Origin: Zygnema cylindricum
Taxonomy: Eukaryota; Streptophyta; Zygnematophyceae; Zygnematales; Zygnemataceae
Assembly (NCBI GenBank): GCA_037447655.1
Contig: JBBHKE010002729.1
Coordinates: forward strand, 330,346 to 394,345
Direction of reading: 5' to 3'
Length of the DNA stretch: 64,000 nt
This document shows positions 3,236 to 53,471 of the stretch, one piece after another; positions within the stretch are counted from its first letter, which is position 1; the number at the start of each line of letters is the position of its first letter. Below the pieces are notes generated by a model. It saw nothing but the letters and a program-made list of their open reading frames with translations. It did not search any database and was not told where the DNA came from. The translations under genes and the position numbers were made by a program.

Positions 3236-4208
3236 ACCCCACATACAGAATACCGCGCATTTGTTTCGACGGCGAAACCAATACCAAGCAATTATTTTCG
3301 ACGGCTAGAATTAAAAGTCGATCTTGATAGAATAGCGGCGATAGATGTCAAGATCCCGGAATGGATGTTTTGGCATTTTTTGGTCATCGCCATGACAAGT
3401 GGCACGTGGCACAACCGCATTGGCTTGCGGCATCTCCGGACTATACGGGAACAAATCCGGATATGGCAAGCGTCGACATTTTCCTCATGCCGTACAATGG
3501 CCGTATAGAAAGTACTTCGACACTTGTACTTTACGCTTCGACACAATAATCTGATTAGTGCCGTACCCTAGTAGTATAGGGTTTAGAGAGGGAATTATGA
3601 CTTCAAAAATTTGGTAGGTAGACCCTCTCTCCCAGAGAGCTTGTGTACAAAAGGTCAACTTTGACCATTCATAGCTTACTGCTCAAGGGAGCAAATTCAG
3701 AGATTCTTTTTGCTATTGACTCAGAGGAGTTTTGTCTTCACAAGGGTCATGTTGCTCAAATTTTTCATCTAACAGGGTGGCATTTATTCTTGTGGAAACT
3801 CAAAGGGGTCAGGGTTATAATAAGGGCTTCGTTTCAACTACCTACTATGAGGACCAATGAAGGTCTCAGAGTTGCACGTTATAGGCCCACCCTCTAGGGT
3901 GCCCATATTTAATGGAATAGGCTTCATATATTGGGAAAGTATGATGACAATGGCTCTATTTCAAAAGAGGTTTTGGGGGATAGATAGTAGACGAGTGAGG
4001 TGTCTATCTAACTCAGCCATTCCTCCTAGGTTTCGGGGAAGCACGTCTACAAAAAAAGCAGATCCAGCTCCACCACAGCATTCGGAAGACAAGGAGAGCA
4101 TTGTGATGGAAAAAGAGAAAGACAAGGAGACAGTTACACAAATAGCAAAATTTATCGCAACCAGTTTAACGTTCATGTCACCTATTTCGAGGAATGAGGA
4201 GAATGATG

Positions 4209-5181
4209 TGTTGAAATCAATAGATTTAGAGGGTATTTTCTAAGTCTAAATAAATTAAGTAAATGCGCAAGCAGTGTGCCTCGACTTTCTCTCTTTAGCC
4301 CCCATACTTGTTGTAGTCACTGAAGGTGAGAGAGAGTGGTGGAGCCATGGCTACCTTAGCTACACAGGTACAATTGTAGGGTGATATAAGTCACTCTTAA
4401 CAAAAAGATTGAGTCCAACAGGACTCGATCTTCAACTGGCAACGCTAGGCGTAGCCGTCAACTTTAACCGGCCAGTTAATGAAGTTCGTTAGAGTATATA
4501 GGGTTTGATTGTTATTTAAACATTGTTAACGAACCTTTATCCAATTAACCTAATTAGAGATAAAAAGCATAAAGACTTGTTGTAACATAGTGCAAACAAA
4601 GACCCGCACAAAACAAATGTACCGGACATTTGTTTTAACGACTAATATTTAAAGTTCTTTTAAATCCGACAGCACGCATCATCCCCGATACCCAAGAATG
4701 GCCGCTTTGGTGGTTTTTAGGCGTGACATGGCCTTGCACCATAATTGCACGATATAATTGTAGAGGAGGAATCCCGGAAAGCATGAGAACAAGTCTAGAG
4801 GAGACAGACGTCTACTCCATGACCTTGCCATACACAGGCCGTACGGAAAGGACATTGGCCATAGTACCTTTTTGTACTGTACAGTTCTATGATTGGTTCG
4901 TACATCACTAGATAGGGGTTGTGAGAGGGGTTTGGAACTTTGAGGATTAAGGAGGTAGGCGCCTCTCTCTTAATGAACTTGTATAAATATTGATATCTTT
5001 GCCATTTGATAATTAATCACCTAGTTAGGCATTTTAAGTGATTCTTCTTGGTGCGGACTCAGGGGAGTCCAGACTGCACAAGGGTGCAGTCAAATTGTCT
5101 ATTTGCTTGCTTGGGTAGCAGGGGTCGTAGTTGAAGAAGACCTTCTAAATTTTGCTGTCCAATGGGGGACTTAAAATTGCA
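4209..5181 (+). repeat. 5' LTR of nested copia element
   Basis: Starts TG (TGTTGAAATC) and by alignment with the 3' copy ends in TTGCA, a normal TG...CA form. It differs from the 3' LTR by many substitutions and small indels, indicating an old insertion. It holds an antisense tRNA-like block near 4407-4475. No clear primer-binding site for the usual initiator Met-tRNA (TGGTATCAGAGC) follows. Confidence 0.75.
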
Positions 5182-6267
5182 AGTTATGGGCCCACCATCT
5201 GCGGTGCCCATCTTGAATGGATATTGGTCATTTATTGGGAAGCCATGATGGTAAGGACTTTGTGTGAAAAACGATACTGGGGTATTGTCAATGGACAAGT
5301 GAAACGTCTATCTCAAGAAATCCCACCAAGGTTTAGTGGTGTGAGGTTTTTAACAGCACCATCTGCCCCAACGGAGGAGGTAGACGACGGGGACAACAGT
5401 GTGTTCAAAAAGGGGAAAGGGAAGGAGACACCTCTCACTCCTATCGCCACGGCATCAAGAGCGCTGGCCGTGAAGACTGAGGAAACTGATATTCAAACTT
5501 GGGAATGAAAAAACATGGTTGCCTGGCATTTCATTTTGAGGCACCTCACTCAAGCTTTAGCAACCTCTCATCTTCATATTCTTAAGGCCGAGGAGTTGTG
5601 GGTGACTTTAGTGGAGATCTATAGAATTTGTACTATTCAACAGCTTGAGTTGGCCGAGCAAAGGCTAGGGGATTACGCTTACATAAGGGGAAAAATGTTG
5701 GATTACTGTAATAACCTCTCTTGTTTGTATATAAAGATGGAAAGTGCCGCATGGACAAGTACAATGAAGATGAAAGTCAACACTCTCATCATAATGTTGC
5801 TAGATGAATATGAGAACATAGTGTACCGAGTGTAGGGAATGGATGACAGTTCTTTGAAGTGGAAAATAATGCTTAAGATGATACTCGTGCAGGAGAACAC
5901 TATTGAGATTCACAGAGGAGGAAAGAGCGTTCAAGCTCTAGTTGCCAGAACAGACCAGTGGGTGAACGAGTCGAGGAAGCTGTACGGTAACATCAAAGGA
6001 GAGAAAGATCAATCTGGAGGACGAAAGCCCCCAAAGGGTCTTTGTCATTTCTACAAAAAATTGGGACACTTCATAGCAGATTGCACTAAGGTGTCGGAGT
6101 TGAGGCTCCAAGAGAACCGTGGAGGGGGCTCTTCCAGAGGAAAGAAGAAAAAACTTGTGGTCACACAAGTGAACGGGGAGACCAGCGAGGACGTGGTCTT
6201 TGAGGAGGAGAATGGGGAGCTATTTTTTGACGAAAATTTGGAGGAGAGGGAGATCCCTCAAAAATAG
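5162..6267 (+). pseudogene. copia gag (nested element), broken
   Basis: The gag reading begins with an ATG at 5162 that by alignment lies inside the last 20 bp of the LTR, and its frame shifts within the first 30 codons. Further pieces lie at 5152-5508, 5515-5835 and 5839-6267, separated by in-frame stops. The middle piece carries the HFILRHLTQ-type capsid region. The last piece carries one zinc knuckle in which the second cysteine of CX2CX4HX4C is a tyrosine (CHFYKKLGHFIADC). Such a protein would coat element RNA in the intact ancestor. Confidence 0.75.
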
Positions 6268-7533
6268 AAGCGTGTTATTGAAGCCATTTAGGAAGCTCCA
6301 TAAGAAGGATAGATCATCGATTTACGTGCATCCATGCATATGTGTCGTGATAAGCATCTCTTTACCAAACTAAAAAAGATCCATAATGTAGAGATAGAGT
6401 ATGGGGTTTGGAGAGTAGTTACTACAAATCTAGTGGATCCGATAGATTTGAAAGTCTTATTGAAGGGTAAAACTTCTATATTCACTTTCTCACATGTAAT
6501 CCACATTCCTTCGCTGAGAAAAAATCTTATCTCTACCTTTATGTTAGATGATAAGGAGTTTGATACCTTTACTAGAAATGGAGTTTTCACAATTAAGTAT
6601 GGGGATGAAGTCTACTTCACAGCAGATAACGGTAGCGAATGAATGTTTGGGATTAACCTGAGTAATGAAAAGAAGAATGCATATTATATTGGTGTCCCGA
6701 ACTTGATGATGTGGCATAAGAGGTTGGGGCATGTGCATTTTGATAGGCTGAGGGAAATGAAAAAGCTTCGTGTAGTAGACAGCATTCAGTTTGAGGATAA
6801 TGAAATTATAGATGATTGAAGTGGTTGTGCTCAAGGTAAGGCTCACAAACTACCCTTCCCCAAAAGTGCCACATATAGAGGTTAGAAAGTACTAGATCTG
6901 GTCCACACAGATATCTGCTGACTGGCAAAAGTACCTTGCGTCAAAGGGAAAAGGTTTATGTAGACATTCACTGATAATTGGTCCAAATACTCTACATTCT
7001 ACTTTCTAAAAACAAAGCTTAAAACACAAACTTACTTCAAAGAATATAAATCCTGGAGTGAGAAATTGCATGGAACCCCAATTAAGAGAATAAGAAGTGA
7101 TAATGGGGGAGAATATACCTCTAACCAGTTGAACGAATACTTCAGGGATGAGGGAGTTCAGCATCACAAAACAGTACCGAAAAATCCAGAATAAAATTGG
7201 GTAGCTGAGAGGTTGAACCTGACTCTAGGAGATAGTGTACAAAGTATGTTAGCCGACAAGAAGATAGGAAAAAGGTTTTGGGCAAAAGCCATAAACTTTG
7301 CTAACTACATTAAGAATAGAGTCCTTACTACAGCCGTGAAAGGAATGATACCTTATGAGAGATGTGTTGGAAGGAAACCAAATATTTCTCACCTTAAAGT
7401 ATTTGGCAGTCAATTTTACAGCCTTGACACAGATAAGAAAAATTGGAAACTAGATGCTAAAGGGAAACTAGGGTATTTTGTGGGATATGATGAAGATGTT
7501 AAGGGATATAGAGTGTATGACATAGTTAAATAA
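6268..7533 (+). pseudogene. copia protease and integrase (nested element), broken
   Basis: The protease active-site triplet, normally DSG, reads D-L-R at about 6320 (the related host copy still has DSGAS at about 11345). The integrase region follows, with the HHCC zinc-binding HKRLGHVHFDRL start at about 6717, the DLVHTD aspartate at about 6897, the SDNGGEY aspartate at about 7097 and a decayed NWVAER region at about 7197. Stops interrupt it at several points. The last piece (7213-7533) is the copia integrase C-terminal region with a KVFGS-like motif. Confidence 0.8.
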
Positions 7534-7563
7534 TATATCATTCTGGTAAAGCACCTAGTTGTC

Positions 7564-9525
7564 ATGGATGAACGAAAGTCATTTGATCCCTTCAACTATA
7601 CCAAGAAGATAAAAATCAGTTTTGAGTCCGAGAGTGAGAAGGACTCGGATCTTCTCAAAGGGGACATGAGGGAAAACGTGATTGCAGATTCAAGGGAGAT
7701 CCAAGATAGAACAGATACACCGGAATCTTCTCATATTCCTATACACTCCGAGTAGACAGAGGAGGAGGAGCTACAACCAACTTCCATAGATAAGCGAGCC
7801 TATGACACAGTGAGGAGGAACCCGAGACTTCCTTTCATTCCTACTTCGGACTTGGAGGGAGGACAAAAAATCAGCAAAAGACTACAGGAAAAGAAGGCTA
7901 CTCACGAGGTAACTAAGCTATCTCATCCTAATGAGCCTCACTCATACTCAAAGGCAATGAACAGTCCTAAGAAAGATAGATGGGCTAGAGCCATAAATGA
8001 TAAGATGGCCTCCATCCTAGAAGAAAATACTTAGGAGCTAGTGGACTGTCCTCCGCACCGACAAACCGATTGGGTACAAATGGGTGTTTAAACTAAAGCT
8101 CAACCCAGATAATACCATAGAGAGATATAAGGCTCGGTTGGTAGCAAAGGGGTTCACCCAAAAAGAAGGGATAGATTATGAGGAGACTTTTGCTACATTG
8201 GTTTCGTTCCCATCACTAAGAATTCTCCTCAGTCTAGGGACAGCGGAAGACATGCAAATACATCAAATGGATATAAAGACCACTTTCCTCAATGGTGATC
8301 TAGAGGAAGAAATCTTTATGCGGCAACCAGAGGGGTTTGTAGAGGAAGGAGAGGAGAGCAAAGTCTGCAGACTCATAAAGTCTTTATATGGTCCAAAGCA
8401 GGCTCCCAGACAATGGAATAAGAAACTAGATGAGTTTCTCACCAGTCTCCGATATATTCAGATCTGTTCTAACCATTCTATTTATATGTTTGAATATGAG
8501 AATGGTGTTATTTTCATTGCAATTTATGTGGATGATTTGTTGGTGTTAAGTAAATCCATGGAAAATATCAATAAGTTAAAGAAAGATCTTAGAAGCATAT
8601 TTGACATGAAGGATTTAGGGGAGGCAAAATATATTCTAGGAATTCAAATGGAAAGAGATAGAGGAAAAAGGATTATCAAACTTACTCAGAAAGAAGCTAT
8701 AAGAAATATGCTTGAGAAATTCCAAATGGAAAAGGCAAATTGTTGTACCACTCCCATGGACTTGAATAAAGTAAGTGATGGGAGTGTAGAAGGAGGATTC
8801 ATAATCTTAGATGATTAGATGAGTCTAGAAAAGAGACAATTTATGAATTCTATTCCTTACGGGCAAGTTGTAGGAAGCTTAATCTATTTTATGAATGTAC
8901 TAGACCAAACATAGCGGTAGCAGTTGGAGTCCTCAGTAGAAGTCTTAATGATCGTAGGAAGAGAGATTCGGAGGCAACCAAGAGAGTCATGAGATATCTC
9001 GTGGGAACAAGGGATTTATGGTTGCATTTAGGAGGGGAGCACAATGACATCACTACTTTGAGTGATGTTAGTTATGGAGATGCCCCTATGAGAAGATGCA
9101 CTTCAGGGTATGTGTTGTATGTGGGAAAATGTGCTTGCTGTTGGAGTAGCAAGCAACAAAAGGTGGTCGCTCAGTCCACTATAGAGGCTGAGTATATGGC
9201 CTCTTTCTCAACTGTGAAAGAATGTATGTGGGTCAAATCTTCGTTACAAGAAGTGATGTATATGAAAGAGGGAGTGCATGAAGTGTTCTGTGATAATCAA
9301 GCTGCCATTGCAATAAAAGCCAATCCAAAAAATCAATTTAATGCTAAATATATGGACATAAGATTAAGTTTTGTGAGGGAAAAGATTGAAAAAATAATAA
9401 TGAATCTTGTGTATACAGCTGAAAGGGAAATGGTGGCTGATATGATGACCAAACTTGTGCCATCTCCCACGTTAAAATATTGTACAGAAAAATGTGGACT
9501 AAAAGAGAAACTAAAATTAGCCTAG
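7564..9525 (+). pseudogene. copia reverse transcriptase and RNase H (nested element), broken
   Basis: Open pieces at 7564-7755, 7810-8034, 8084-8818 and 8989-9525 together span the integrase-RT linker, RT and RNase H. The RT piece contains RLVAKGFTQKEGIDYEETF, the QMDIKTTFLNGDLEEE region and the catalytic YVDDLLVL at about 8526-8549. The RNase H piece contains WSSKQQ, STIEAEYMA and CDNQAA motifs. Stops after codon 74 of the second piece and near 8818-8985 break the frame. This is diagnostic of Ty1/copia. The ancestor would have copied element RNA to DNA. Confidence 0.88.
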
Positions 9526-9538
9526 AAAATAAAAGGAG

Positions 9539-10519
9539 TGTTGAAATCAATAGATTTAGAGGGTATTTTCTAGGTCTCAATAGATTAAGTAAAAGCGCCA
9601 GCTTCTCTCTCTAGCCCCCATACTTGTTGTAGACATTGAAAGTTAGAGAGAGTGGTGGAGCCATCGCTGCCTTAGCTACACAGACAAGACTGTAGAGTGA
9701 TGTAAGTCCCTCTTAACAAAAAGGTTGAGTCTGGCAGGACTCGAACCTTCAACCGGCAGAGCTAGACGTAGCCGTTAGCTCTAACCAGTCTGTCGTAGAA
9801 GTTCATTAGAGTATATAGGGTTTTATTGTTATTTAAACATTGCTAAAGAACCTTAATCCAATAAACGGAATTAGAGATAACAAGCATAGAGACTCGTTGT
9901 AATATAGTGTGAACAAAGACCGGCTCGAAACAAATGTACCATACATTTGTTTTAACGACTAATATTAAAAGGCACTTTAGATCCGATGGGACGCATCAAC
10001 GCCGACACCTTGGAATGGCCACTTTGGCAGTTTTTGGGCATGACATGACTTCGCGCCACGTGGCACGATAGAATTGGAAAGCAAGAATCTCCGTAAGCAT
10101 GGGAACATATCCAAAGGAGACAGACGTCTACTCCATGGCCCTGTCATACATAGGCCGTACGGAAAGTACATCAGCCATAGTACCTTTTTGTACTATACAG
10201 TTTTCTGATTGGTTCATACACTAGTAGATAAGGGTTGTGAGAGGGGTTTAGGACTTAGAGGATTGACGAGGTAGCCGCCTCTCTCCCAATGAGCTTGTAA
10301 AAATATTGGCATCTTTGCCACTTGATAATTAATCGCATGGTTGGGCGTATTCAGTGATTCTTCTTGCTGCGCACTCAAGCGAGTCTTGACTGCAGACGGG
10401 TGCAGTCACATTGTCTATTTGCCTGCTTGGGTTGTACCGGTTGTAGTTGAAGAAGGGTAAGTCAAAAAATATCTAAAGCTTTTTGAATTTTGTAATCTAA
10501 TGGGGGACATAGAATTCTA
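9539..10519 (+). repeat. 3' LTR of nested copia element
   Basis: Direct-repeat partner of the 5' LTR, beginning TGTTGAAATC right after a purine tract. Alignment with the 5' copy extends through AATGGGGGAC to position 10519, where TGATG, the target-site duplication, follows. It contains an extra insertion of about 28 bp near 10455-10485 relative to the 5' copy. Confidence 0.75.
9724..9794 (-). other. tRNA-like sequence inside the LTR (antisense)
   Basis: On the minus strand this block has a D-arm-like CAGACTGGTTAGAGC (9778-9792). About 30 nt further on comes a perfect pol III B box GGTTCGAGTCC (9737-9747). The 5' LTR has the same block at about 4407-4475 with a damaged B box. The 5' acceptor half does not pair with the 3' acceptor half, so this is a tRNA relic or captured promoter rather than a functional tRNA. 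No anticodon can be assigned safely. Confidence 0.5.
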
Positions 10520-12236: not shown

Positions 12237-13594
12237 TGTTGTCCATAGCCTATTTCAGCCATGGATTACTCAAGGAAAACACCCACAGACTACCCCAAAA
12301 CAGTTGTGTTTAAGACAACATAGATTACTCCACAATATATAAAAGCACCTCAAACTGCTCCAGTATGTAGAATGTACTCAACACTATAACCTCCCAAAGG
12401 TAGAGCCTGATCCACAAATGAATTTAAAAGATATGAGCTCCAAAGTTTCCTAAAAACTTCTGACAGCTTATCAAACAAACCAAGTAAATCTCTCACACAA
12501 TTCTACAAAAACAGCAGAACAAAATGAAACTACACAACCATATAGTTTCTATATCCTAAAACATCCACACAAAGTTTCATATCAAGATATCAATCAGAGT
12601 GATCACACTGACAGGTCAAAGATGCAAAAAAACAGTCTGCCATTACTTTGATAAACTCAGCTGATACTAAAAAATAAATTAAGTCCTACATTTTATGCTT
12701 ACATAGCTATCTACTGAGCCTTGCACTAATCAAGGTACTACACCTGTAACTAAGTACTGTACCCTAATAAAATCACTGTACGTCAACGGTACGTCTACTC
12801 TACCGGAAGTACGTCCATAACCCTAATTGTAACTTTTATCATATTTCAACAATGTAACACTAAAAACTAGATAACTACATACAAATTAATGTTGTTTCAG
12901 ATATTTACAGATAGTGGCCGTACATACATTGTGCCGCTTGCTTGGTAAGCAATTGGCGAATCTGTCCAAATTACTGTAACCGTCCGTACTAGTCAATTCT
13001 GAATTCACGGATCGTCGTAAGATGTAAAGTAAATCTTCGTGATGGACGACACGCGTCTGTTCACCCTTGGCAATCACTTGATCGCTAAGAGTGGTTTGTA
13101 AGTTCACGATGCCTTGCGGGTGCAGGCGCGTTTCAGGATAGTTGTTGATCGTTTAGAGGCTACGTGAGTGGATTGGGTTCACCTGGACCTAATTGTATTG
13201 AGCATTTGCACTGTCCACGCTTTCTATGCTTGCCATCTGGCCGTGAGTGGCCTTGTGTTTTTCTTGTTGTCTGTTTGGCGTGGAATTTTATTGTTAGATC
13301 TGGCCGTTGGTGGCCTTGGATAGAACTATTTTCTGCCTGTGGAGCTTTAGATCTGCACCTCCGGGTGTTTGTTTAGCAAGTTTCTGCCTTTATAGATCTG
13401 GCCCTTTGGCCTTGCCCACTCGTTTGCAGGGTAGAGGTTTCGGTAAAAGCGGCCTCTTGACTAGATCTGGCCATCGTGGCCTTGTTAGAGACTGTTTGAG
13501 ATTGTTGCTTATGTATGTGGTATGGTTTAGCATTTGTTACACCTCGTATAGGGCGTATCCATTAGCAAATTAGCTTGTTATCTCAGTCATTTTT
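12237..13594 (+). other. Probable LTR/leader of the gypsy-type element
   Basis: The copia integrase stops abruptly at a TGTTGTCC sequence (12237), a plausible LTR start. The next 1.36 kb has no coding signature and leads into a gypsy gag. No second LTR copy is present in the window, so LTR status is inference. Between 13225 and 13490 a motif of the form (AGA)TCTGGCC-N(3-6)-GGCCTTG recurs four times. No standard primer-binding site was identified before the gag ATG at 13595. Confidence 0.4.
13225..13490 (+). repeat. Four spaced TCTGGCC...GGCCTTG motifs
   Basis: Near-identical motifs occur at about 13226, 13298, 13393 and 13463. Each has two GGCC cores a few bases apart, so each could fold into a small stem. 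They lie in the presumed 5' LTR or untranslated leader of the gypsy-type element. They could be transcription-factor sites or RNA packaging stems. The function is unknown. Confidence 0.55.
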
Positions 13595-14890
13595 ATGCCC
13601 ACTGATTGGGAGAATCTTGACCACTCATACTGATCTACACGTAGTGGTGGAACTTTCCGTTCATCAAATTTTGATCAATTGAATTTATCAAATTTGGTTC
13701 CTTTAACGTTAAGTCCTTTAATCAAATCTAGAGCGTCTTCTACTCGTTCAGATTTAACCACTCTCTCATCTTTGTCATCCATTATTTCCACGCTATTTGT
13801 GGAAGAGGTTGATAACCAAAGGGAACCCTATTTAGATTTTCTTTCTTTTTGGTCTCCGTTAGCACCGATTCAGGCTTTGAATTTGACTAACTCGTCTCTT
13901 TTGATGGCCTCCACATCGGAGGGTACTCTTGGTAAAATTCAATTATGCTTTTCCGGAATGAAAGATACCATGAGTTTATCTCATTTTCGAAAGCTATTCA
14001 ACACCGAAATGCGAGATCTAGCTTTCCGTTATCAAGATTGATTTGACATGCGTGTCGTTTTCTCCCTTCTCGGGCGTTACCTTCACGGGTTCGCCCTTAC
14101 TTTATATTCCCGCTTGTATGATGGCATACTTGCGATGACCGAATATTCTCCACAGTTTGCTGGAATGCCTGAGGTAATAGGTCAAGCAGAAATCCCTTAT
14201 CAAGCTGTTATTCTCGAGGTCTTAGATGCGCTTGGCAATGTTCTTTGCCCAGCTGTGGCGGAGGTTCCCCAACAATATGCTATTGCAGCCCAAGCCGCCG
14301 TCCCGGCACGACCCGGGATGACTATTCCGTTACGAGACCCTCTCATCATAATGTTTAATTTGTTACAAGAGGAGTACCGCATGCAAAATCTTGACCAAGT
14401 TAAAAAATTAATGAATTTTGAGCGTAAACCGAGCGAAACTGCCCCCGCTTTACGAGCTCGCATGGAGACCTTACGGGAAGCATTACCCGATCTGATATCA
14501 GATGCCGAAGCTGTCCAGAAGTTTGTTGGACAGTTTCCTTTCCAGTCAAATAAATTTATTCAAAGCCATCTTACCCAAACATACGGTCTCCAATTTACGT
14601 TTGAACATGCAGCTCGATACGCTGTAGAATACGAGATGACGAATTGTTGGTGGGAGGCCCACAATCGACCAAAAGCCCCTCAAAGAGAACCTAACCCTTT
14701 CAATTCACCAAATCCTCGTAACTTGGGGCCGAATAATCGGCCACCAAGGGTCCCAGCTATGGGAACCCCACCAAATTAACCATCTAATCGGATTTGTTTC
14801 CGATGTGGCAAGACCGGGCATGATGCTCGGATGTGCCCGGATAGATCTGCGACCTGTACACAGTGCAAACAGACTGGCCACTTTGTGTAT
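13595..14890 (+). pseudogene. gypsy-type gag with two CCHC zinc knuckles
   Basis: One forward frame starting at ATG 13595 runs through gag. It is interrupted in frame by TGA at 13631, TGA at 14039 and TAA at 14777. The 14048-14779 section is a Retrotrans_gag-like capsid, helical, with a FVGQFPFQSNKFIQSHL-type segment. Two canonical knuckles follow: CFRCGKTGHDARMC (about 14800-14841) and CTQCKQTGHFVYRC (about 14855-14896). The interrupting stops stay in one frame, so the ancestor had a single long polyprotein. Capsid and nucleocapsid roles are by family. Confidence 0.75.
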
Positions 14891-16240
14891 CGTTGTCACA
14901 TCAAAAACCCTGAATTTTCATATCAAAATCAGATTCGAAATGGTGGCATACCGGCTAGATCTGCCAAAATAGTCCAACCTGTTAAAGAGTCAGAGAAAAA
15001 CTCTCCACCTAAAGTGTCTCGGAGAGAAAAAGAGAGAGAGGAAATGCAAACTCAAATGGCCGCTATGATCAAAGACCAATTTGCAGCCTTTATGGCTCAA
15101 ATGAAACCGCCTACTCACCTAACTGGTATGGCTCGTACAGTTGTCCATCTTCCCACGCTAGCAGGTCGAGTTTTACGAGATTCAACCATTCAAAAGCGGG
15201 CAACCACGTTTGACAAGGGGACAGTTGATCACAATCGCAAGGGTAAACAGTCTAGCACACGTCTACCATTATCATTTTCCAAAGAAACCGCGACCAATTT
15301 GCCCGAAACAGCTTCCACCATCACGGCGGAAGCACTCACTATTCTTGACCGCTCCATTCAAGACAGCCATAGGGTTAAGGAAAGATTATGCATTTTGTCT
15401 ACTATGATTTCCGATTCACCCAACCTAAAATCTACGGTGACATCCATCCCATTTGCAGCATTACTGGCTTTACAAATGAACCGTAATTTTGATGCTCTTA
15501 GGCCTATCTCTACCGACGAGCGCAATTTACTTGACCCACACATCAATTTTTTAGATAATGGGAAGGGTGCATTTTCAGTCAATGGTGTCCTACCGTCATT
15601 ACCACTTATGGACACGAGTGCAAAACCAGTTATTTTGGGGTCATCTTTTGCACTGAAACTAGGTCTGACAGCTGATAAACTTCAGTCCACTTCCACACGT
15701 TTAGTCACCTCAGCGGGAACAACCGAACCAGTTTTGGGCATTACGAAGGATCCACCCTGTTTTAGGTTTCAAAATGGTACAGAATCTGATTTTGCGGAAG
15801 TTCGTGTACACGCATTGGTCACCAAATGTAGTGATTACGTGTGTTTAGTAGGGCAAGATGTGATTTTCAGAGTAGGAGGCGACGTTGATATGTACGATCA
15901 GACTTTTTCCTACCGTCCTACCAATTATCCGGAAAAGAAAATTTGTCTCCCTCTAATTTCAGCACGCCAATCCATGCCCATTATGGCTCACGCAGCCCAA
16001 TCTGTCCCTGCTTATTCCGGTAATTCGGTAGGATTTGAAATTTTTCATTATCTTTCCGCAGAGGAAATTCTGCCCGATAGTCCTTCTTTGCCTGAAATTT
16101 TTGATAATCTAGGTTTTGTTATCGATTCTCACGAGTTCGATCACATCTACAAACACACAATTCAGATTCCTTTATCGCGGGTTCCACCTCTGCCTCTTAT
16201 TTCTATAGATCTTTCTGGATTTTTTCCCATTAATTGGAAA
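14891..16240 (+). pseudogene. gypsy-type protease region of the polyprotein
   Basis: This continues in frame from the zinc knuckles. A basic, low-complexity linker (residues rich in K, E, R near 14980-15060) is followed by a retropepsin-like fold at about 15590-15890. There the sequence MDTSAKPVILG resembles the D[ST]GA-x-VILG active site, with serine in place of the glycine. GQDVIFRVGG at about 15850 resembles the second conserved region, where LG.D and related forms are usual. There are no stops in this section. The alignment is by eye only, so the protease call is moderate. Confidence 0.55.
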
Positions 16241-17471
16241 CCAATTCAGGTAAAACCTCATCAAGATGGTCTAGTCATTTTAGACCTATTCGCAGGCATA
16301 GGTACCTCTCTACTCTCATGCCTTCGCAACGAATTACCTATCAAGCACTACTACTCAGTTGACACTGACCCTTTAGCTCGGAAAGCCCAAACACATCACT
16401 CTAATCTTTTACACGGACAATATCCACATCTTTTCCCTAAATCTGCCTTTGCTCACATGCATACAGCACTACCTCAAGATATTCGTTTGATAGGAAACCA
16501 ACACCTTCTCGATGTGGAACCAATCGATCTTCTCTTTGCCGGTTGGGAGTGTCAGGAATGTCGGTTGGGAGTGTCAGGAATGTCACGAGCAGGCAAAGGT
16601 CTCGGCTTAGCTGATCCCCGCACAAAATTATTCTTTGAATTACTTCGTATCAAGCATTTTTTGCAATCTTTCGATCGCCCATTGGGATCTATTCTGGAAA
16701 ACGTGGCAGCCTATGACGATCCTTGACCTACAGTGTTAGCTGATTACAAGCAGATAGAAGCATTAATTGGTCCTCCACTTATCATTGATGCCGCTTGTCA
16801 CAGGTCGTTAGCTCATCGGGTTCGATCTAAATGGACCAACTTGATTGATATTGGACGCCTTAGAGAAGGAAATCTTTTTGTCAAACCTCCTTTTACAGAT
16901 ATTCAGACTGCACTTCTTCCTTTTCACAAAGTCCAAACCTCTTCCTTTTCACAAAGTCCAAACCTGTCTGCAGCCTGATCACCCACCGAATTACAACATT
17001 AACGTCTCAGGCCAACCACTCAAAGTTCTCCCCACGGGTTCGATCTAAATGGACCAACTTGATTGATATTGGACGCCTTAGAGAAGGAAATATTTTTGTC
17101 AAACCTCCTTTTACAGATATTCATACTGCACTTCTTCCTTTTCACAAAGTCCAAACCTGTCTGCAGCCTGATCACCCACCGAATTACAACATTAACGTCT
17201 CAGGCCAACCACTCAAAGTTCTCCCCACTCCAAAGTTCTCCCCACTCCAGTGTCTTATCCACACTCTCACGCTTTCTCTGGTGATGGGCCCGGCCTGCTC
17301 AGAAATATTCACACAGGCGGCCTAGATGAACGTAGAGCCATAGAACGAGAACACCTTATGCATTTCCTTCCCAACACTACGGCTGCCCATGGTCTCACAG
17401 AACGACAGCGCTGCATCCTTTTAGGTCGTGTCATGGACCCTCAATCCCTCTCATTTGTCTTAGGCATCTGA
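16241..17471 (+). pseudogene. Cytosine-5 DNA methyltransferase domain within the gypsy polyprotein
   Basis: In frame with gag and protease, a C5-MTase core appears in the usual, non-permuted order. Motif I is LDLFAGIGTSLL (about 16280). Motif II has an acidic SVDTDP. Motif IV is LLFAGWECQEC (about 16530-16561), with glutamate where the proline of Pro-Cys is usual. Then come GKGLGLADPRTKLFFE, motif VI ENV at 16697-16705, a TGA stop at 16724-16726, and an IDAACHRSLAHRVRSKW stretch like the motif IX/X region of DNMT3-type enzymes. A C-terminal piece ending TERQRCILLGR lies in another frame at 17250-17471. The order excludes a DRM-type permuted enzyme. The domain would methylate cytosine in DNA. 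This copy is broken by the stop, a 22-nt repeat and a 218-bp repeat. I infer that the domain belonged to the element. Confidence 0.82.
16818..17235 (+). repeat. 218-bp tandem duplication in the methyltransferase tail
   Basis: Sequence from about 16817 (GGGTTCGATCTAAATGGACC) restarts at about 17036 with very high identity and runs to the CTCCCCAC shared at about 17030 and 17230. The first copy also carries an extra internal repeat of about 25 bp (CCTTTTCACAAAGTCCAAACCT twice, 16918-16965). Together these move the downstream coding sequence into another frame. Confidence 0.85.
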
Positions 17472-17814
17472 TTTGCAACAGGTCGTTACGCACAAACCCA
17501 TCCGTCTCAACCAGCTCAGGGGGGGGAATGCATCATCAATTTCTAAACACATACCTACACGATCTCCGGTCACCCTTAGGGGGACACCTTCTCAATTTCC
17601 CCTCTTTCCATCCCCTATAAAACCTTCTCTAGATGTCACAATCTACGATTTCTTGAACCCTAGCCACATGTCATGGTCCATTCCGGCATATACTGCTGCC
17701 CAATCTGCTCCCTCTAGTCGTATGTCAACACCTCCTCACAGGACTCCTTTCTTACTCGCAGGTGGCACCATTGGACAAACTGCTTACAGGAAACACCGGT
17801 TGGTTACTCATTAG

Positions 17815-18515
17815 GTCAGTCACTTATCGCGGATGAACAGCTAGCTTTTTCACAAGCCATGGAAGCAATGACGATTAAAGGTTCGGAATCTCCTAAATGG
17901 AAATTTGGCTCTAATCTCTCTCAATCTGAACATGATCTACTGAACGAAGCGATTCTCTAGAATATCGACGCTTTTGCTTTCTCTATGAATGATCTTGGTC
18001 GCCATACCACCTATAAAATGTCTATAGATCCGTAAGACGATCGTCCCATTTTCAAGCTGAAACACCGCTTATCTGAAACGGAATGGGAATTAGTGGATCA
18101 ACGCTGCGCTGAATTAGAGGAAGCTGGCCTTATTTATCGGTCGGATTCTACTTTTGCCGCACCCACTGTCATGCCCAGAAAAAAAGATGCCGAAGGAAAC
18201 TTTACTGATCGCAGGATGTGCGGCGATTACCGTGAACTCAATGCTAGAACGATACAAGATCGACATCCAATGCCATTGGCCGAAGAAATATTTGATCATG
18301 TAGGAGGCGCTAAATATTTCAGTATTCTGGATTTACGACAAGGCTTTAACCAGATTGAAATAGAGGAGAAGGATAGGCATAAAACCGCCTTTTGGGGTAG
18401 TGATGGTCGTTAGGAGTGGTGTGTCATGCCTTTTGGACTTAAGAACGCCCCCGCAGTTTTTCAAAAAGTAATGGATTCAGTTTTAGGTGCCCCCACACCG
18501 AATATAGTGTGGAGG
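17815..18515 (+). pseudogene. gypsy-type reverse transcriptase, 5' part only
   Basis: The frame contains typical Ty3/gypsy RT blocks: PIFKLKHRLSETEW, EEAGLIYRSDSTFAAPTV, RMCGDYRELNARTIQDRHPMP, YFSILDLRQGFNQIEIEEKD, KTAFWG and WCVMPFGLKNAPAVFQKVMD. In-frame stops occur at 17958 (TAG), 18033 (TAA) and 18411 (TAG). Similarity ends at about 18515, before the YxDD catalytic block. No RNase H, integrase or 3' LTR was found. The chromosomal sequence after 18515 is unrelated and G-rich. Confidence 0.85.
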
Positions 18516-20432
18516 ATATCCATTTGGCGATACATCGAAAGCGGAGACAGATGAGACACAAGCAGGGTAGGGAGGGGAGGAGAGGATGATAGGAGGGGCA
18601 CCGGTGGGTAAAACATTGTTAGTGTTGAGTACCAGTGGCCTCAATTATCGCCATAAACGTAAAAAAAAATCGATTTTTTTTCGCCCTTCCCCCCCCACCC
18701 CACCTCTTCTTCCTATTGCGATAACTCTATACTTTTCTGTACTTTTTATGTACTTTAGTCGTACTGCAGTACCGTACGGCCCCTCCCACCACCCCAAATT
18801 TGTTGGTCCTGGAGAAGTATATCTGCCCCCCTCACCGTTCTATAACATTTATTCGATAATATATTTAACAATATCGGATTTATATATATTAAAGCTCTAT
18901 TTTGGTACTTCACTTGCATGGAATATGGGAGAAGGGTGTGGCAAAAGGGCAGGAGGGGAGGGAAAGGGGAGGGAGAGGGGAGAAGGGAGAGGGGGGAGAA
19001 GAGAGGGGAGAGGGAAGCCCATAACCGATCAATCATACCCTTGATAGTTTTTTCTTTCTTCCAAAAAAAAACGAATCCAATTGAAGGTGAAATTTATAAA
19101 TCTAAATATAAATATGAATGTGCAATACAAATTTATACATGAATCTGAATTTATTGCACATAAATTTATGCAATAGTTATGAATCGAAAACACAACTTTA
19201 TTGGTGTAGATCTCTACTTTTCCACATATTCAAATCATTTCTCAAGTTTCAAAAACTCGATTAAATTAGGATACTATTTAAATTATTTTCCGAGTTACAA
19301 AAACTTAATTAAATTAGGATGCTATGGGTTGTTATTGCCAAATCTCATAAGAAGCACCAATTTTACAATACGAAGTAAAAAAAAAAATCTCTTTGTTTTT
19401 GTTTCATTTGCTCTCTTTTCCCTTTTTAGGTTTTTTTTAGTTGCTTCTATCTACATTCGGTTTTTCACTTTCGCTTATTCCTTTCATTTTTTGTTCCCAA
19501 TGTGTATATTTATAAAGTATTTAAATATAATAATCTAATATGTTATAAAATGGTTTACCTCCGTGCTTTCTTATTGAAGTCTTATTACTATATATGATCC
19601 AACAGGTGCTTACAGGTAATCGATGCGAAGGTGCTTTTTTAGCAAAATAACTAGTTAAAAGGAAAAAGAAAAAGGAAAAATAACAAACAAAAGTGAGTGA
19701 AAAACTGGATGGTTTTTCATTAAAATAAGAAAGAAAGTGGAAAATAAGTGATTTTAGGGAAGGTCCAGTGAGACATTGTACAAATAGTGTGTGAAAAAAA
19801 TATAAAATTTCAGAATTCCTGAGAATATTACACTTTTGTTAAGCATTCCCATCGAGAATTTCAGGCGTCGTTCTTTCTATTTTTCCTTTTTTTTTCGAAG
19901 TACTAAAATGAAGGAAAAAGGTAAACTATGTATACAGCAAAAAATACCTTAAACATTGTATGAAAATTTAACGACTTTCCATAACCCTTTTCCTCTCCCT
20001 CTTCCTCTCCCTCTCCCTCCCTCGCCCACTCCCTCTCCCTCTCCGATGTCCTTTTTTCTGTATTCCTTTTTCACCTAAGCACTAAATGAAGGAAAGCAGG
20101 GTAGACTACATAGCAAAAGCTATAGTATACACAGTACAAAAAAAAAGTGTATAGTTTAATTTCGTAATTTAAAACAATTGCACAAAATCAGTCGCTAACT
20201 TTTTAGACGACTGTGAAACAAGAAAAAACTTTTTATCAGATGGATTAATTATACAAAACTGTAACTTTTTCCTACCTTTCAATTCACCTCTCTCTATCTT
20301 TCTACTTTTGCACATGTGAAATTTATACTTAATCAGCTAATTAATTCATCACAACCATATAGCTTTATTCTACCTCTCTACCTTTTTTCCGTTTTCTGAC
20401 GCGTTTTTGATAAAGCTTATGATCATTACCTT
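18516..20432. other. Intergenic DNA, no gene seen
   Basis: A G-rich block (about 18550-19015, purine-rich on the plus strand) is followed by AT-rich DNA. An imperfect direct repeat of about 60 bp lies at about 19235-19325 (shared CAAAAAC...TTAAATTAGGAT). A pyrimidine tract of ctccct units lies at 19985-20045. Open frames here are repeat artefacts. The last 100 bp may be the 3' UTR of the SIP gene. Confidence 0.5.
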
Positions 20433-20745
20433 CTAAGATGTTTTCTTTTTGCCACTGTTCTCTTCTTCCTTAGGTTTAGTTGTCTCCTTTTCTAATTTTT
20501 CACCAGTCTTAGGCTTAATTTCTGCCGGTTTCTCCTTTGTCGCAGGTCGAATAAAATTTCCGAAAACAATAGCCGCGAGAATCGTACCGATTACGGGAGC
20601 CAACCAGTACACATAGAAATGCTCCGGATTCGAGTGCTCATTTCTCAAATACGCCCAAGCAAATGCCTGCAAGCCAACGAAAACTCAAGCATCTTGATTC
20701 AACACACATTATTTGCCCTTCACTGCCTCTCTGTCCATCTCTATC

Positions 20746-20817
<72 letters not shown>

Positions 20818-23800
20818 TCTCTGCCCGGCTTATTTGCATATGCAACTGCTATTTCCGTTGCTTCTCTACCTCCAAAACAGACAAAGGCTTCCATTCTTTT
20901 CACAAGTCTTAAACACGTTGGTAATGATTAGCGATACTATAGTCAGCAAAGTCAGGTGATCATACGATCGGAAATTTCTCACGTTTTACTCACAAACATG
21001 TGAGCAATTCTACACTTTGTACAGATTTTTTGAGTAATTGGGTGCGTACTGTTACTCAAAACTGGACTTCGCTCAAAACATGAATTTTTTTTAATACTGT
21101 AATCACCCTCTTTAATTTGTTCTCCCTCTCCCTCTCCCATTGTATCAAAATCCTTACCATGGTTGGGTTCATAGCTGGGCCAGTATATGGGGCTCCAACC
21201 ACTATACAGGAAAGAACTCCTGTAATAAGAAGAGCTGACCGAAGTGCAAAACTTTTTGGTCCGGCAAGAATGCACCATAAAACCACTACATTGACGGCAA
21301 AAGTAAGCAAAATTTCTGCGATTATCGCTGTTTGTAAATCGACTCCGTGACCTATTTTCGGTCCTCCAAGAGTATGTTTATAAGCTTCTGGCATCACCTC
21401 TGTAATTGCCCGGGCACCTAAAATCGAACCAGCTACCTGGTTGTTGCACACAGAAACACAAAAAACACACAGGACCATCCATAAAACACAAAAAAACACT
21501 ATAGTTGTCAAACCTTGTTAAAGCTTTTTGTCCTTTGTTGTTTAAATTCAAACTGGTTTAAGAAATACCCATGCTGATGGATTGGTTCAGCTTTACTGAT
21601 CAATATTTTTTTGTTTTAAGATCTCGTGTTTCTGTTATGACATACACACTGCATTTTGATTTTATATTTTCGTCTTATATGATTAAGATCAGAACATGTT
21701 TCTATAAATTTATGAACATATGTGGGTCGGTTTCTAAACCAATTACCATTGAAATATAAATTTACGTTTCATTGATTCCATATTTGAGTCGTTTTAAATG
21801 AGGATATATCAAAACTAGCATACAAACTATTTTGATTTACTTCTTGTGTGATTATTTGAATTAAGTTATTTTGAAATCGTTCAATCTGTTTACCAAGTGC
21901 GATATTAATTGTATGCAACGAGGATTCATTTAGACGTTGAAAAGCTAGCTCAAAAGTGTCAGATTTATTAATTGTTTGTGGGTAATCATTAACGGATCTG
22001 GTTTCAGCTAAGTTTCAATAGTGGTCACAATTAGAAGACATCAGTTCATTTATATACAATAGTTTTATTTGAAAGGATAAATATCCCATGTTTTATGTAC
22101 AGTATCTGTAGACATAAAGATAACAAGCAGCTAAAAGTAAACTGTAAAGAACTCAAATTGCAAATTGAAAATCTCAAGAAATTGCAAAAAACATTAACAT
22201 ATTCCAGTAGACGCACAAAGGATATTCGACTTGCATTAGTTTGCCACGTTTCTGGTCATGTTACGTGATATTTGACCGAAACATGACTAAAAACATGCAA
22301 GTGAGAATATGTGTCCTGATATTTTAATTGCAAGGAAAATTACGAACAAAATGACATACTCTGGTAGATACACTGATATTTTACATGAATTGAAATTACG
22401 AACAAAAGCATACCTTCTCTCCCTTCCCTCCCTCCCTTAATTACCTGCACCGGAATCGTGATATCCATGGCAAGGTTTAACTCATTGCCTTCTCCCAGTC
22501 CCTCTCTCTCTCCCTCCCTCCCTCCCCTTCCTTCCTTCCTCAAGCACTTGAATCGGAATCATAATTCCCTCGCTCATCCCTCCCTCTCCTCTCTTCCTCC
22601 CTCAAGCACTTGCATCAAAATCTTTATTCCCTCTCTCCCTCCCTCTCCCTCCCTCCTTCCCTTCCCTCCCCCCCTCTCCCTCCCTTATGTACCTGCACCG
22701 GAATCTTGATTCCCATGGCAAGAATGGACTCATTGCCTTCTCCCAGCCAATAGTTGGCAAGATTTGAAGTCGGATTGAAAGAAGCGCCTCCCATGGCATC
22801 TGTCAGAGCTCCAAACACCATAAGGTGTACTGCTATTACAGACTGCAGGAGAAAAAAAGCGAAAAATACGTTAAGAAAAAAAGAAGAAAAAGTGCAAAAA
22901 AAGTGAGAAAAAAGCGGAAAGTTAAGGAAGTTAAATTATGCTTGAAGATGAAACGATGCCATAATGGACCGCAAGAGAAAAAACAGTGATGAAAAAAGTT
23001 GAAAGGAAAGTGAAAAAAAGAAAAACTATGAAATTATGTTTGGAGATGAAGACAATGCTATTACGGACTGCAAGAGAAAAAAGTGAAAAAACAGTGAAAA
23101 AAAAGCTGAAAGAAAAGTGAAAAAAAAAGCTGAAAGAAAAGTGAAAAAAAAAAGCTAGATGTTCGGAGATGAAGACAATGCCACTACAGAGTGCAAGAAA
23201 AAAAAAATAATAAGAAAGTGAAAAAAAAAGTTCACAAGCAAGTATGAAATTGTGTTTGGAGACGAAGACAATGCTATTACGGACTGCGAAAGAAAAGAAA
23301 GTGGAAAAAAAAGTGAAAAAAAAGAGTGAAAAAAAAGAGTGAAAAATAATGTGGAAAACAAAAAATGGAAAGAATTGTGAAAAACAAGCAAGTATGAACT
23401 TATGGCTGGAGATGGAGTCAATGGTGTTACAGACTGCGAGAGAAAAAAACGAAAAAAGTGAAAAACTAAAGCAAGTAGGGAATTATGTTCGTAGATGAAA
23501 ACACTGCTATCACAGATTGCAAAATGAAAGAGGAAGTGAAAAAAACGGAAAAAAAATGAAAGAAAAAACGGTGAAAATAGTGATAAAAGTGAAGAAAAAA
23601 AAATGAAAAAAAAGTGAAAAAAAAGCGAAAGGAAATGAACTACTGATATTACAGACTGAAAAAAAAAATGGAAAAAAGGTAAAAAAAAAAAAAGTGAAAA
23701 CATTGCTATTGCAGACTGGAAGAAAATAATTGAAATGTGAAAAAAAAAAAAAGACGTGAAGAAATACAACTGCAATAGCTTCTTTGATGCCAAAAAAAGC

Positions 23801-40460: not shown

Positions 40461-43400
40461 TCATTTAAAATCCTTTCCCAGGGCAAGATTTCGAGCATAT
40501 GATGCTCGACTCCGGAGTCCTGCTCTCTCATAAGCACACATCACAAATTCCCACGTTTGGGATGACGGACGAAATCGTCTTTCTCTCATCAACTCTATTG
40601 TGTCCTCCATTTTCCCCAAAAGCCCAGCATTGCTGTAGGCTACAACCAAATTATCAAAGTCTTTCTTTTGAAGAGAAAACCCAGCTGTTATCATTTCACA
40701 AACTGAATGCTCCATGCGGTCAATCAGGCCACTTCTTCCGTATTCCAAAATGAGGATTTCGAAAATTAAATGGGTAAAAGGACAGCCCTCTATAGCCATA
40801 ACCTGCCGAATTCGTTCTATTCCTGCTATTAAGCCCCGTCTCCCATAAGCCCTTAGGACAGAAGCATAAACAGTTGCGTCAGGTTGACAACCAATGGCTC
40901 TCATAAAACGCAAAGTGGTATCCATTTTTGTACAATCACCATGGTTCCCAAAGCCTGTTATAAGGGCAGTGAATGTTAACTTGTCGGGTTCAATACCTAA
41001 ATTACACATTTCTGTGAATACTGCCTCCATTTCTGCAACTCTTCCCAATTGACTCTCGACACAAATCATCTCGGTATATAAGGCGGTGTCCTTTTTGCAC
41101 TTGTTTATGGTCAACTCTTCCCAAGTTTCTGCAACTTTACGAAAGAGACCACAAATACGATAAGCGTGGACTAGCACCGTGTATGTGACCCCATCTGGAG
41201 TAAGACCTTTTTGACGCATTGTTTCCAATATCTTTTCCATTGATTGAATATCACCTGTCTTTCCAAAAGCAGAAATGAGCGTATTAAACACAACAATGTT
41301 TGGTTTGCAATCTGTTTCTAACATTCTCTCAAACAATTCCTTTGCCTCCTGTAGACGACCAGCTTTGGTTAATGTCATCAATATTGCTCCGTACGTCACA
41401 ACGGTGGGCCTCAATGGTGAATTTGATGCCTGCATCCTTCGAAAAACTTCTACAGCTTTGTCTGTTTCTCCAGCACGTCCCAACGCAGTAATGATAGCGT
41501 TGTACGGTGGAGCATCAATTACACAGCCAGAGGCTTGCATGTCATCTAGGAGAAGAAAACATTGTTTTATCATCTTGCCACGTCCAAGAATTGTCAACAT
41601 CATTGTATAATGGTGCACGTTAGGGGAATAAGGGTTCCTTTTGCGCCACCATTGCCACACCTGTAAAAACACATGCAATATACGGGAAAAAATACATCTT
41701 CATTTTGTGGATCTTTGGCAAAGAATACGTTAACATATGCAATTTACTTCCAAGTCCTAGACATTTTAATGTTACCAAGCAAGGACAAGTGCAACATCTA
41801 CAAAACATTGCATCTTCATTTCCAAGATTTTTGGCAAAGAACACATTAAGATGTGCAATTAATTTGAAGACTTCGCCAGTTTGATCATAGTTTCAAAGTG
41901 CAAAAATGCGTGGAATTGGTATATCTGGTAACCTCGTGTTATACATGTATTATAGGGGGTTATCGCATATAATACTGGTATATGTGGGGCAACCACATAT
42001 ATTGTTTTCATACATTTTCGCACTTTAATACTATGATCTTAATGTTGCCTAGTAGGCCAAATCTCTAAGGAGATAGAGAAGCATGATTCATCTTTAGGTA
42101 TTGTGGCTTTACTCAATATGGAGTTACAAAGAAAGGTGGTAGTAGCTTTCACGTCTTCCATTGTGTGAAGAATTATGAAAGCACAGCCTCACCTATCATT
42201 GAAAACAACGTTTGATGCTATTCAGAGGACATGATAAGATCACAAGGCAATACGACGCCCTTCGCTAATAGAGTTACTGAAATATTGGCGTTAACAATTT
42301 ATCGGAATCAGCTACACTAAATTAAGTGTTGCCACATGGTCCAATGTAGGGAACTTAAACGACTAGTGCCACTGACAATAATTTATGATTTTGAGTCAAA
42401 AAACACGCACCCAAGTTAGAATGCCCATAGGAATGAAAGTTAACAACATTAATTTGGTCTAGACTTTTTCACCAAAAAATCATAATATTAAAGGAGTGCA
42501 CTACACATCGCCATGTCTCCCCTCAATGAATTCGTATTATACATTCTAATTCAGCATTGACTCTAACACTTCATTTACACTAAAAGGATGGACAGTGTAG
42601 CTATCTTAACGGGAGATATAGCCCCTTCCAGCTTGCCATAAACTACAGCGTGAATAGTTATTAGAGTAAACAAATTAATAGCGTGGGGTTTATATAAGTG
42701 TTATTAATTCTAATTCAATTCTAAATGACATGGCTGATTCTGAAACTGTTTAAAGAATAAGTGTTAAGAGAAAACAATTAGTGTCATAAACACTCTTTCA
42801 GGTTTGAGGGGTAAAATTTAGGCGCACTGATATTGTGTCATTAACGCTAATAACAATACACAGAGTACACTGCCCATCGCTATTAGTGAAAAAAAAATAT
42901 TGGTTTTGAATCGAAATTAGTACCAATCATACTGATTTAACACACACTTAAATAGTAAAATTAAAAAAACACCATTTTATGGTTTTTGGGGAAAAAAAGT
43001 CGCGACTGCATTGATATTAACACTAATAGAGATGGGCCATAAAAACCTTAAAATTTCAAGGCAAACACTACTTACATTGCTCTACAACAAAGAGACACAA
43101 ATGCTCTTTAGGAGTTGTCTTGCAAAACAGGATTGTAGGGTTTTTAACACTTTCTTAAGGATTTTAAGGATTGTAGCAGTTGTCTTGCACAACAAAATTG
43201 TGGGTTTTTCTACGGTTTTCCAGGGGTTGCTAGAATTGTAAGTGTTATCTTTCGGAAAAAATTGTAGAGCTTCTAGAGTTTTTTTAGGGTTTTTTGGATT
43301 TTAGGATTGTAGAAGTTGACTTGCAGTGTACACCATGTACCGCTATTAACACTAATGTTTTTTTCACCACATATTGATTGGAGACCGCCAATCAAAAGGG

Positions 43401-53051: not shown

Positions 53052-53471
53052 CACCATAATTCTTTCACACCAGAAATACTGTTACGTCAATTTAAATTAA
53101 GATCCTGAAACTTTACAGAGAATTTTTATTAAGTCAAAGGACACAGGAGTAACGGCAATTAAAATAGGAACTGTACAGTAGACAGATTATTGCCTACTGA
53201 CATACTTTAATGATCCAGAAAACTATCCAATATTTCATATCCAATATTCAATATTTTAAAATTTTGTTTCAAATCAAAATTAGTGAAGACCATGTGTAAC
53301 CATAATTCTTTCACACCAGAAATACTGTTACTTCAATTTTAATTAAGATCCTGAAACTGTACAGAAAATTTTTATTAAGTCATAGGACACAGGATTAACG
53401 GCAATTAAAATAATAACTGTACAGTAGACAGATAATCGCCTACTGACATACTTTAATGATCCGGAAAACTC
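53052..53471. repeat. Direct duplication of ~170 bp downstream of psaF
   Basis: Blocks at 53052-53224 and 53299-53471 are offset by 247 bp and about 95 percent alike by eye. Both begin ACCATAATTCTTTCACACCA and end TTTAATGATCCxGAAAACT. They are separated by a segment that recurs again at about 53827. Confidence 0.85.

Follow-up and report, generated by a model that had tools for sequence, protein, structure and literature searches.

A 64,000-nucleotide stretch of contig JBBHKE010002729.1 from Zygnema cylindricum (hereafter the window) contains a decayed piece of a multi-copy Ty3/gypsy retrotransposon family whose gag-pol polyprotein includes a predicted DNMT3-type cytosine methyltransferase and, behind the integrase, a PHD finger. 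We put at about 0.6 the probability that the intact polyprotein of this family methylates newly made DNA of the element itself and that its PHD finger guides integration, the window copy being a dead fragment. The class itself is known, as an earlier sequence-only reading of this DNA had suggested: Gypsy-type elements with a DNMT3 in Pol were described as KnitGypsy-Dnmt3 in Klebsormidium nitens (de Mendoza et al. 2018, PMC5890265). The polyprotein combining a reader with a writer, its two layouts and its ECQ active site are undescribed in the open-licence PMC literature searched.

The proposal of a C5 methyltransferase domain within a Ty3/gypsy copy was borne out by the DNA_methylase profile PF00145, which matched window positions 16241-16726 with 30.3 bits (E 3.7e-7), above the curated cut-off of 22. 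The following features were recognized in the window copy.

13056-18481, + strand: internal fragment of a Ty3/gypsy element, delimited by blastn against sister loci L009, L010, L016 and L019
13664-14779, + strand: gag-coding region with stops at 14039-14041 and 14777-14779 (translation; tblastn, L010 Gag query)
14780-16726, + strand: open frame of 648 amino acids with a CCHC knuckle, the protease and the first methyltransferase part, ending at TGA 16724-16726
15575-15742, + strand: aspartic protease, a weak Pfam match below cut-off (PF13650, E 0.014; tblastn, L010 protease query)
16265-17471, + strand: DNMT3-type cytosine methyltransferase, split by a stop and tandem duplications (PF00145; tblastn with protein P0001)
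16283-16315, + strand: motif I, DLFAGIGTSLL
16537-16580, + strand: motif IV (GWECQ at 16541-16555) with a 22-bp tandem duplication, 16537-16558 and 16559-16580
16697-16705, + strand: motif VI, ENV
16811-16834, + strand: AHRVRSKW, aligned with DNMT3 AHRARYFW, in frame with motifs I-VI but 3' of the TGA
16817-17228, + strand: tandem duplication (16817-17035 and 17035-17228) in the target-recognition part, its pieces 98-99% alike
about 17330-17471, + strand: C-terminal block EREHLMHF...ERQRCILLGRVMDPQSLSFVLG, motif IX/X-like, in a different frame from motifs I-VI, with stop 17469-17471
17748-18481, + strand: start of the reverse transcriptase (RT; RVT_1, PF00078, E 3.2e-7; blastn), with TAG 18411-18413 in frame, cut off near 18481

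Motifs I, IV and VI thus share the open frame 14780-16726 with the CCHC knuckle and the protease, motif I and ENV being those read earlier, and the methyltransferase stands between protease and RT as proposed. Position 17471, given earlier as the end of the region, is exactly the stop after the last conserved block. Motif IV is GWECQ; the string AGWECQEC, proposed for this region, extends into the 22-bp tandem duplication. AHRVRSKW had been called motif IX/X-like; its alignment places it instead in what we take to be motif VIII, and the IX/X-like block lies further downstream. Four in-frame stops interrupt the copy (two in gag, the TGA in the methyltransferase and the TAG in RT), and blastn with the four sister loci found no match to their terminal repeats at 13056-18481. 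The window copy is a dead internal fragment without a working enzyme of its own, so the description of an element carrying its own methyltransferase is not borne out by this copy.

Its family does carry the domain. A protein search returned P0001, which has the same protease tail and methyltransferase as the window copy; because both parts match jointly and sister copies are numerous, the domain is more than chance, and together with the PF00145 match this excludes a chance motif match. Searching the window's own assembly (352.8 Mb, 2689 contigs) with P0001 yielded 85 scored copies from 2123 first-look candidates, and the codon pattern of the active-site motif GWECQG had 164 exact genome matches versus 0 for the reversed control. 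Insertion of a host methyltransferase piece into the window copy alone, in favour of which nothing was found, is excluded by these numerous sister copies and deserves practically no weight. The gag-protease-methyltransferase-RT order, sought in an intact sister, is complete in L010, a single open frame of 2395 residues encoding Gag-CCHC, protease, methyltransferase, RT, RNase H, integrase and PHD finger. Its domains start at residues 449 (zf-CCHC), 708 (protease, below cut-off), 942 (DNA_methylase, 44.4 bits with PF00145), 1496 (RVT_1), 1712 (RNase H), 1962 (H2C2) and 2035 (rve), with the PHD finger at 2338-2382. The divergent copy L028 shows the same domain order over several frames, with a PCQ motif. 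Stops are present in many sister copies, and one copy is a recent insertion.

Viewed from the RT side, 92 RT places were scored in the genome and 53 of these were examined for a methyltransferase. In 41 of the 92, a methyltransferase was found upstream on the same strand among the 85 scored copies or 16 motif places (of 100 listed); from the remaining 51, the first 12 were fetched and 8 of these had a methyltransferase body. The body is therefore upstream of RT in 49 of the 53 examined places, and the C-terminal part alone in 4. One of these four, L045, retains only residues 252-299 of 325; the others, L051-L053, showed nothing in 801 bp and, over a longer stretch, the last 20-32 methyltransferase residues behind non-coding sequence. 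L051-L053, and L045 with them, perhaps form a non-autonomous subfamily. L052 and L053 resemble each other in part of this non-coding filler.

Profile and fold both point to a DNMT3-type enzyme. Among the 57 rows of a profile search against the PDB (E up to 0.01), DNMT3A/B/C ranked at the top and DRM next, with DNMT2 far below; DNMT1 and CMT did not occur in these rows, which alone does not exclude them. A structure model of the methyltransferase has a DNMT3-type fold with the unpermuted motif order I-IV-VI(-VIII) that had been read from the window copy. On this profile and modelled fold we class the methyltransferase as DNMT3-type, related to animal DNMT3, which keeps the DNMT3 half of the proposed DNMT1/DNMT3 likeness and drops the DNMT1 half. 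It resembles the catalytic domains of DNMT3A and DNMT3B in fold, motif order, motif VIII and C-terminal block; identity, in contrast, is 20-25%, the element has ECQ where DNMT3 has PCN, and it lacks ADD and PWWP domains, its PHD finger lying elsewhere in the polyprotein. No cellular DNMT3 was returned by the last protein search, which besides P0001 gave nine further element-like matches or fragments (P0057 being weak) and three judged by eye to be of bacterial type.

The family extends beyond this genome. A search with residues 900-1330 of L010 returned 46 proteins of 1326-3625 residues, 39 with RVT_1 and 34 with a PHD finger (precomputed Pfam). Three carry organism names, two from Haematococcus lacustris (Chlorophyta) and one from Closterium sp. 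NIES-54 (Streptophyta), so that by sequence the family is spread to at least these two species; horizontal transfer or contamination may lie behind such relatives. Two layouts were distinguished. In layout I the methyltransferase precedes RT (seven proteins with RT, including the L010 frame, and three without RT in the record); P0001, P0003 and P0004 were assigned to it from the order of protease and methyltransferase alone. In layout II (36 proteins) it lies between RNase H and integrase. What had been known from one green alga now appears as a broader family with two layouts.

Trees of pol and of the methyltransferase each contain a branch, supported 100/100, that separates the layouts. Of the 43 proteins having both a methyltransferase and an integrase, the pol tree took in the 36 whose RT and RNase H span 300-420 residues; the methyltransferase tree had 51 rows, 46 of them labelled, from which P0044 and P0053-P0060 (short, partial or bacterial) were left out. 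A quicker methyltransferase tree had required six changes for layout II, owing to the other labels of five fragments and of P0044. The latter, a Haematococcus record that lacks RT and is nearly identical to P0013, was omitted from the careful tree, in which the five fragments were not counted. By these sequences, methyltransferase and pol branch in common. Alternatively, two gypsy lineages could each have captured a related methyltransferase, in place of one capture and a later move. The differing position in the polyprotein would suit such a history, as would trees that are unrooted and free of cellular DNMT3; the common split, the frequency of ECQ in both layouts and the PHD finger shared by both argue for a single capture, and we find two captures rather unlikely. 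That finger occurs in 36 of the 38 proteins in which the integrase is followed by 130 residues or more, and the two without it, P0005 and P0012, are sisters in the tree.

Layout II has a further domain behind the PHD finger, from about residue 1987 in P0010 and in 22 other proteins, which is possibly a second, amino-type methyltransferase. In a PDB profile search a ribosomal protein came first (E 0.0048), with methyltransferases at 0.087 and weaker; Foldseek gave nothing below 0.001 for this domain, and amino-methyltransferases were favoured only by VIA's second look. A viral source of the family was also considered and rejected, none of 73 pattern stretches in viral contigs being a relative.

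If the polyprotein works as we propose, the methyltransferase would target cytosines of the element's newly made DNA, either cDNA or a fresh insertion, and the methylated copy would adopt a silent, host-like state, limiting both harm to the host and attack by it. The PHD finger, of the type reading the unmodified H3 tail, would steer the integrase to chromatin lacking H3K4 methylation, taking the part played by the chromodomain in chromoviruses. We infer methyl-transfer activity, self-methylation and PHD targeting alike. Four observations weigh against this reading. First, Glu replaces the canonical Pro of motif IV (ECQ for PCQ) in 45 of 56 proteins. Second, the methyltransferase is under purifying selection among sister copies, judged by the ratio of nonsynonymous to synonymous substitution rates (dN/dS), but the constraint on it is weaker than that on RT (0.16-0.22 versus 0.07-0.10 in five pairs). 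These pairs come from the 15 formed by six copies open in both regions, nine being saturated and one nearly identical; pairs were kept at dS 0.1-1.5 and at least 80 codons, and dS was saturated between subfamilies. Third, CpG depletion, the predicted trace of deamination, was not seen in the window fragment or in 18 sister loci. The observed/expected CpG ratio was 0.82 in the fragment, 0.67 in its methyltransferase part, 0.72 in the whole window and 0.50 in the neighbouring copia region; for the sister loci, the methyltransferase gave 0.65-0.91 and RT-integrase 0.68-1.03, measured in fixed windows, parts of which may lie beyond the element in some decayed copies. Fourth, as described in PMC5890265, the K. 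nitens Gypsy domain produced no methylation in yeast, a result its authors call inconclusive because DNMT3B also failed.

The first and last of these points would also suit a domain that is no longer an enzyme and, with its motif IV Glu, serves as a nucleic-acid- or SAM- (S-adenosylmethionine-) binding part of the particle. Against such a loss of catalysis, the catalytic Cys of motif IV and the Glu of ENV are invariant (56 of 56 proteins), the Arg pair of motif VIII is kept in all 52 proteins with residues at the second Arg, and natural PCQ relatives exist, one of them, L028, in the same genome; we regard it as quite unlikely. The third point would fit an enzyme active elsewhere, on RNA or in trans on host DNA or chromatin, altering host methylation instead of marking the element. 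High copy number could serve action in trans, which PMC5890265 considers possible for Symbiodinium. Activity inside the particle is, however, suggested by the fusion of the methyltransferase to gag-pol, and the low rank of DNMT2, the tRNA enzyme, in the profile search speaks against an RNA target; a target of this kind seems unlikely to us, and self-methylation remains our preferred reading.

Split direct repeats in the order A-coding-B-A-B flank four of the five copies with fetched flanks (L010/L029/L030, L016/L035/L036, L012/L037/L038 and L009/L033/L034); the sequence-only reading missed them, along with the PHD finger behind the integrase, the Glu for Pro in motif IV and the second layout. 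All four have the palindromic GACAGCTGTC at the junction of B with A, and TGTC and GACA as their outer ends. The target duplication is exact over 4 bp in two copies (TTGG, CCCT), and three of four bases agree in the other two. A run of G precedes the first B, and the A/B junctions vary by a few bases. These copies lack the two ordinary long terminal repeats of Ty3/gypsy elements. The order RT-RNase H-integrase with a DDE integrase is found in L010, the window copy ending within RT; Pfam (E up to 0.1) detected no chromodomain in L010, which has the PHD finger instead, and an rve integrase is present rather than the tyrosine recombinase of DIRS. The sister copies are a DDE-integrase element with DIRS-like repeats that perhaps integrates from a circle. 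Reverse transcription would produce linear DNA bearing B-A repeats, joining of the two ends would form a circle, and the integrase would open this circle at GACAGCTGTC; opening at an internal palindrome would account for split repeats of the DIRS-like kind that nevertheless come with 4-bp target duplications.

With somewhat less than even confidence, we picture an old green-lineage Ty3/gypsy clade whose single polyprotein would bring its own epigenetic kit. This kit, a DNMT3-type writer with a PHD-finger reader, would predate the split of the clade, the writer having an ECQ site and having moved once between the protease/RT and RNase H/integrase positions; an amino-type (N6A- or N4C-like) domain would have been added behind the PHD finger in the second branch, and a DDE integrase would open a two-repeat circle at the palindrome.

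Compared by published description, the sister copies share with KnitGypsy-Dnmt3 the Gypsy-type domains, an unrearranged DNMT3-type domain in Pol, purifying selection and DIRS-like repeats (Fig. 4 legend, PMC5890265). To that description the present family adds the PHD finger, ECQ, the two layouts and the Haematococcus and Closterium relatives; the term PHD does not occur in the main text of that paper, and none of the proteins found with the L010 query is named KnitGypsy-Dnmt3. The open-licence literature searched made no mention of a PHD finger in methyltransferase-carrying gypsy elements, of Haematococcus or Closterium relatives, of two layouts, of Glu for Pro in PCQ or of a possible amino-type methyltransferase in layout II. 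SymbioDIRS-Dnmt3 and SymbioLINE-Dnmt of Symbiodinium are likewise described as retrotransposons with a cytosine methyltransferase, in SymbioDIRS within Pol beside RT, but are a tyrosine-recombinase DIRS element and a LINE, whereas the Zygnema element has a DDE integrase (PMC5890265). Chromoviruses, as presented in PMC6317226, share the Ty3/gypsy order with a chromatin-reader domain behind the integrase; the Zygnema element differs in having a PHD finger in the chromodomain's place and a methyltransferase in the polyprotein. That survey reports no gypsy elements other than chromoviruses in its algae.

The puzzle is why a transposon should bear an enzyme of the class with which hosts silence transposons. 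Many copies in one genome, selection, two layouts, relatives in Chlorophyta and Streptophyta and a reader beside the writer allow a testable comparison, along an axis of related pol with differing writer position and active-site residue. Such elements can also raise PHD and DNMT gene counts in algal genomes, which calls for caution in annotation. For Zygnema cf. cylindricum SAG 698-1a, PMC9915684 reports PHD proteins in nine-fold or greater excess over its other Zygnema strains; that expansion could stem from elements of this kind.

Elsewhere in the 64-kb window, no tRNA or Rfam matches were found, and plasmids gave no DNA match to its sequence. Its other features are as follows.

4208-10455: Copia-type element with an RVT_2 frame at 8042-8818 and a 0.93-kb direct repeat, 4208-5139 and 9538-10455, 83% alike
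20400-22850, - strand: aquaporin-like exons with introns, read by eye
40461-41699, - strand: pentatricopeptide repeat (PPR) protein

The aquaporin-like and PPR genes hint at a host of the plant lineage. Short tandem duplications are numerous both inside the gypsy element (16537-16580, 16817-17228) and outside it (19227-19322, 49504-49902, 53053-53470).
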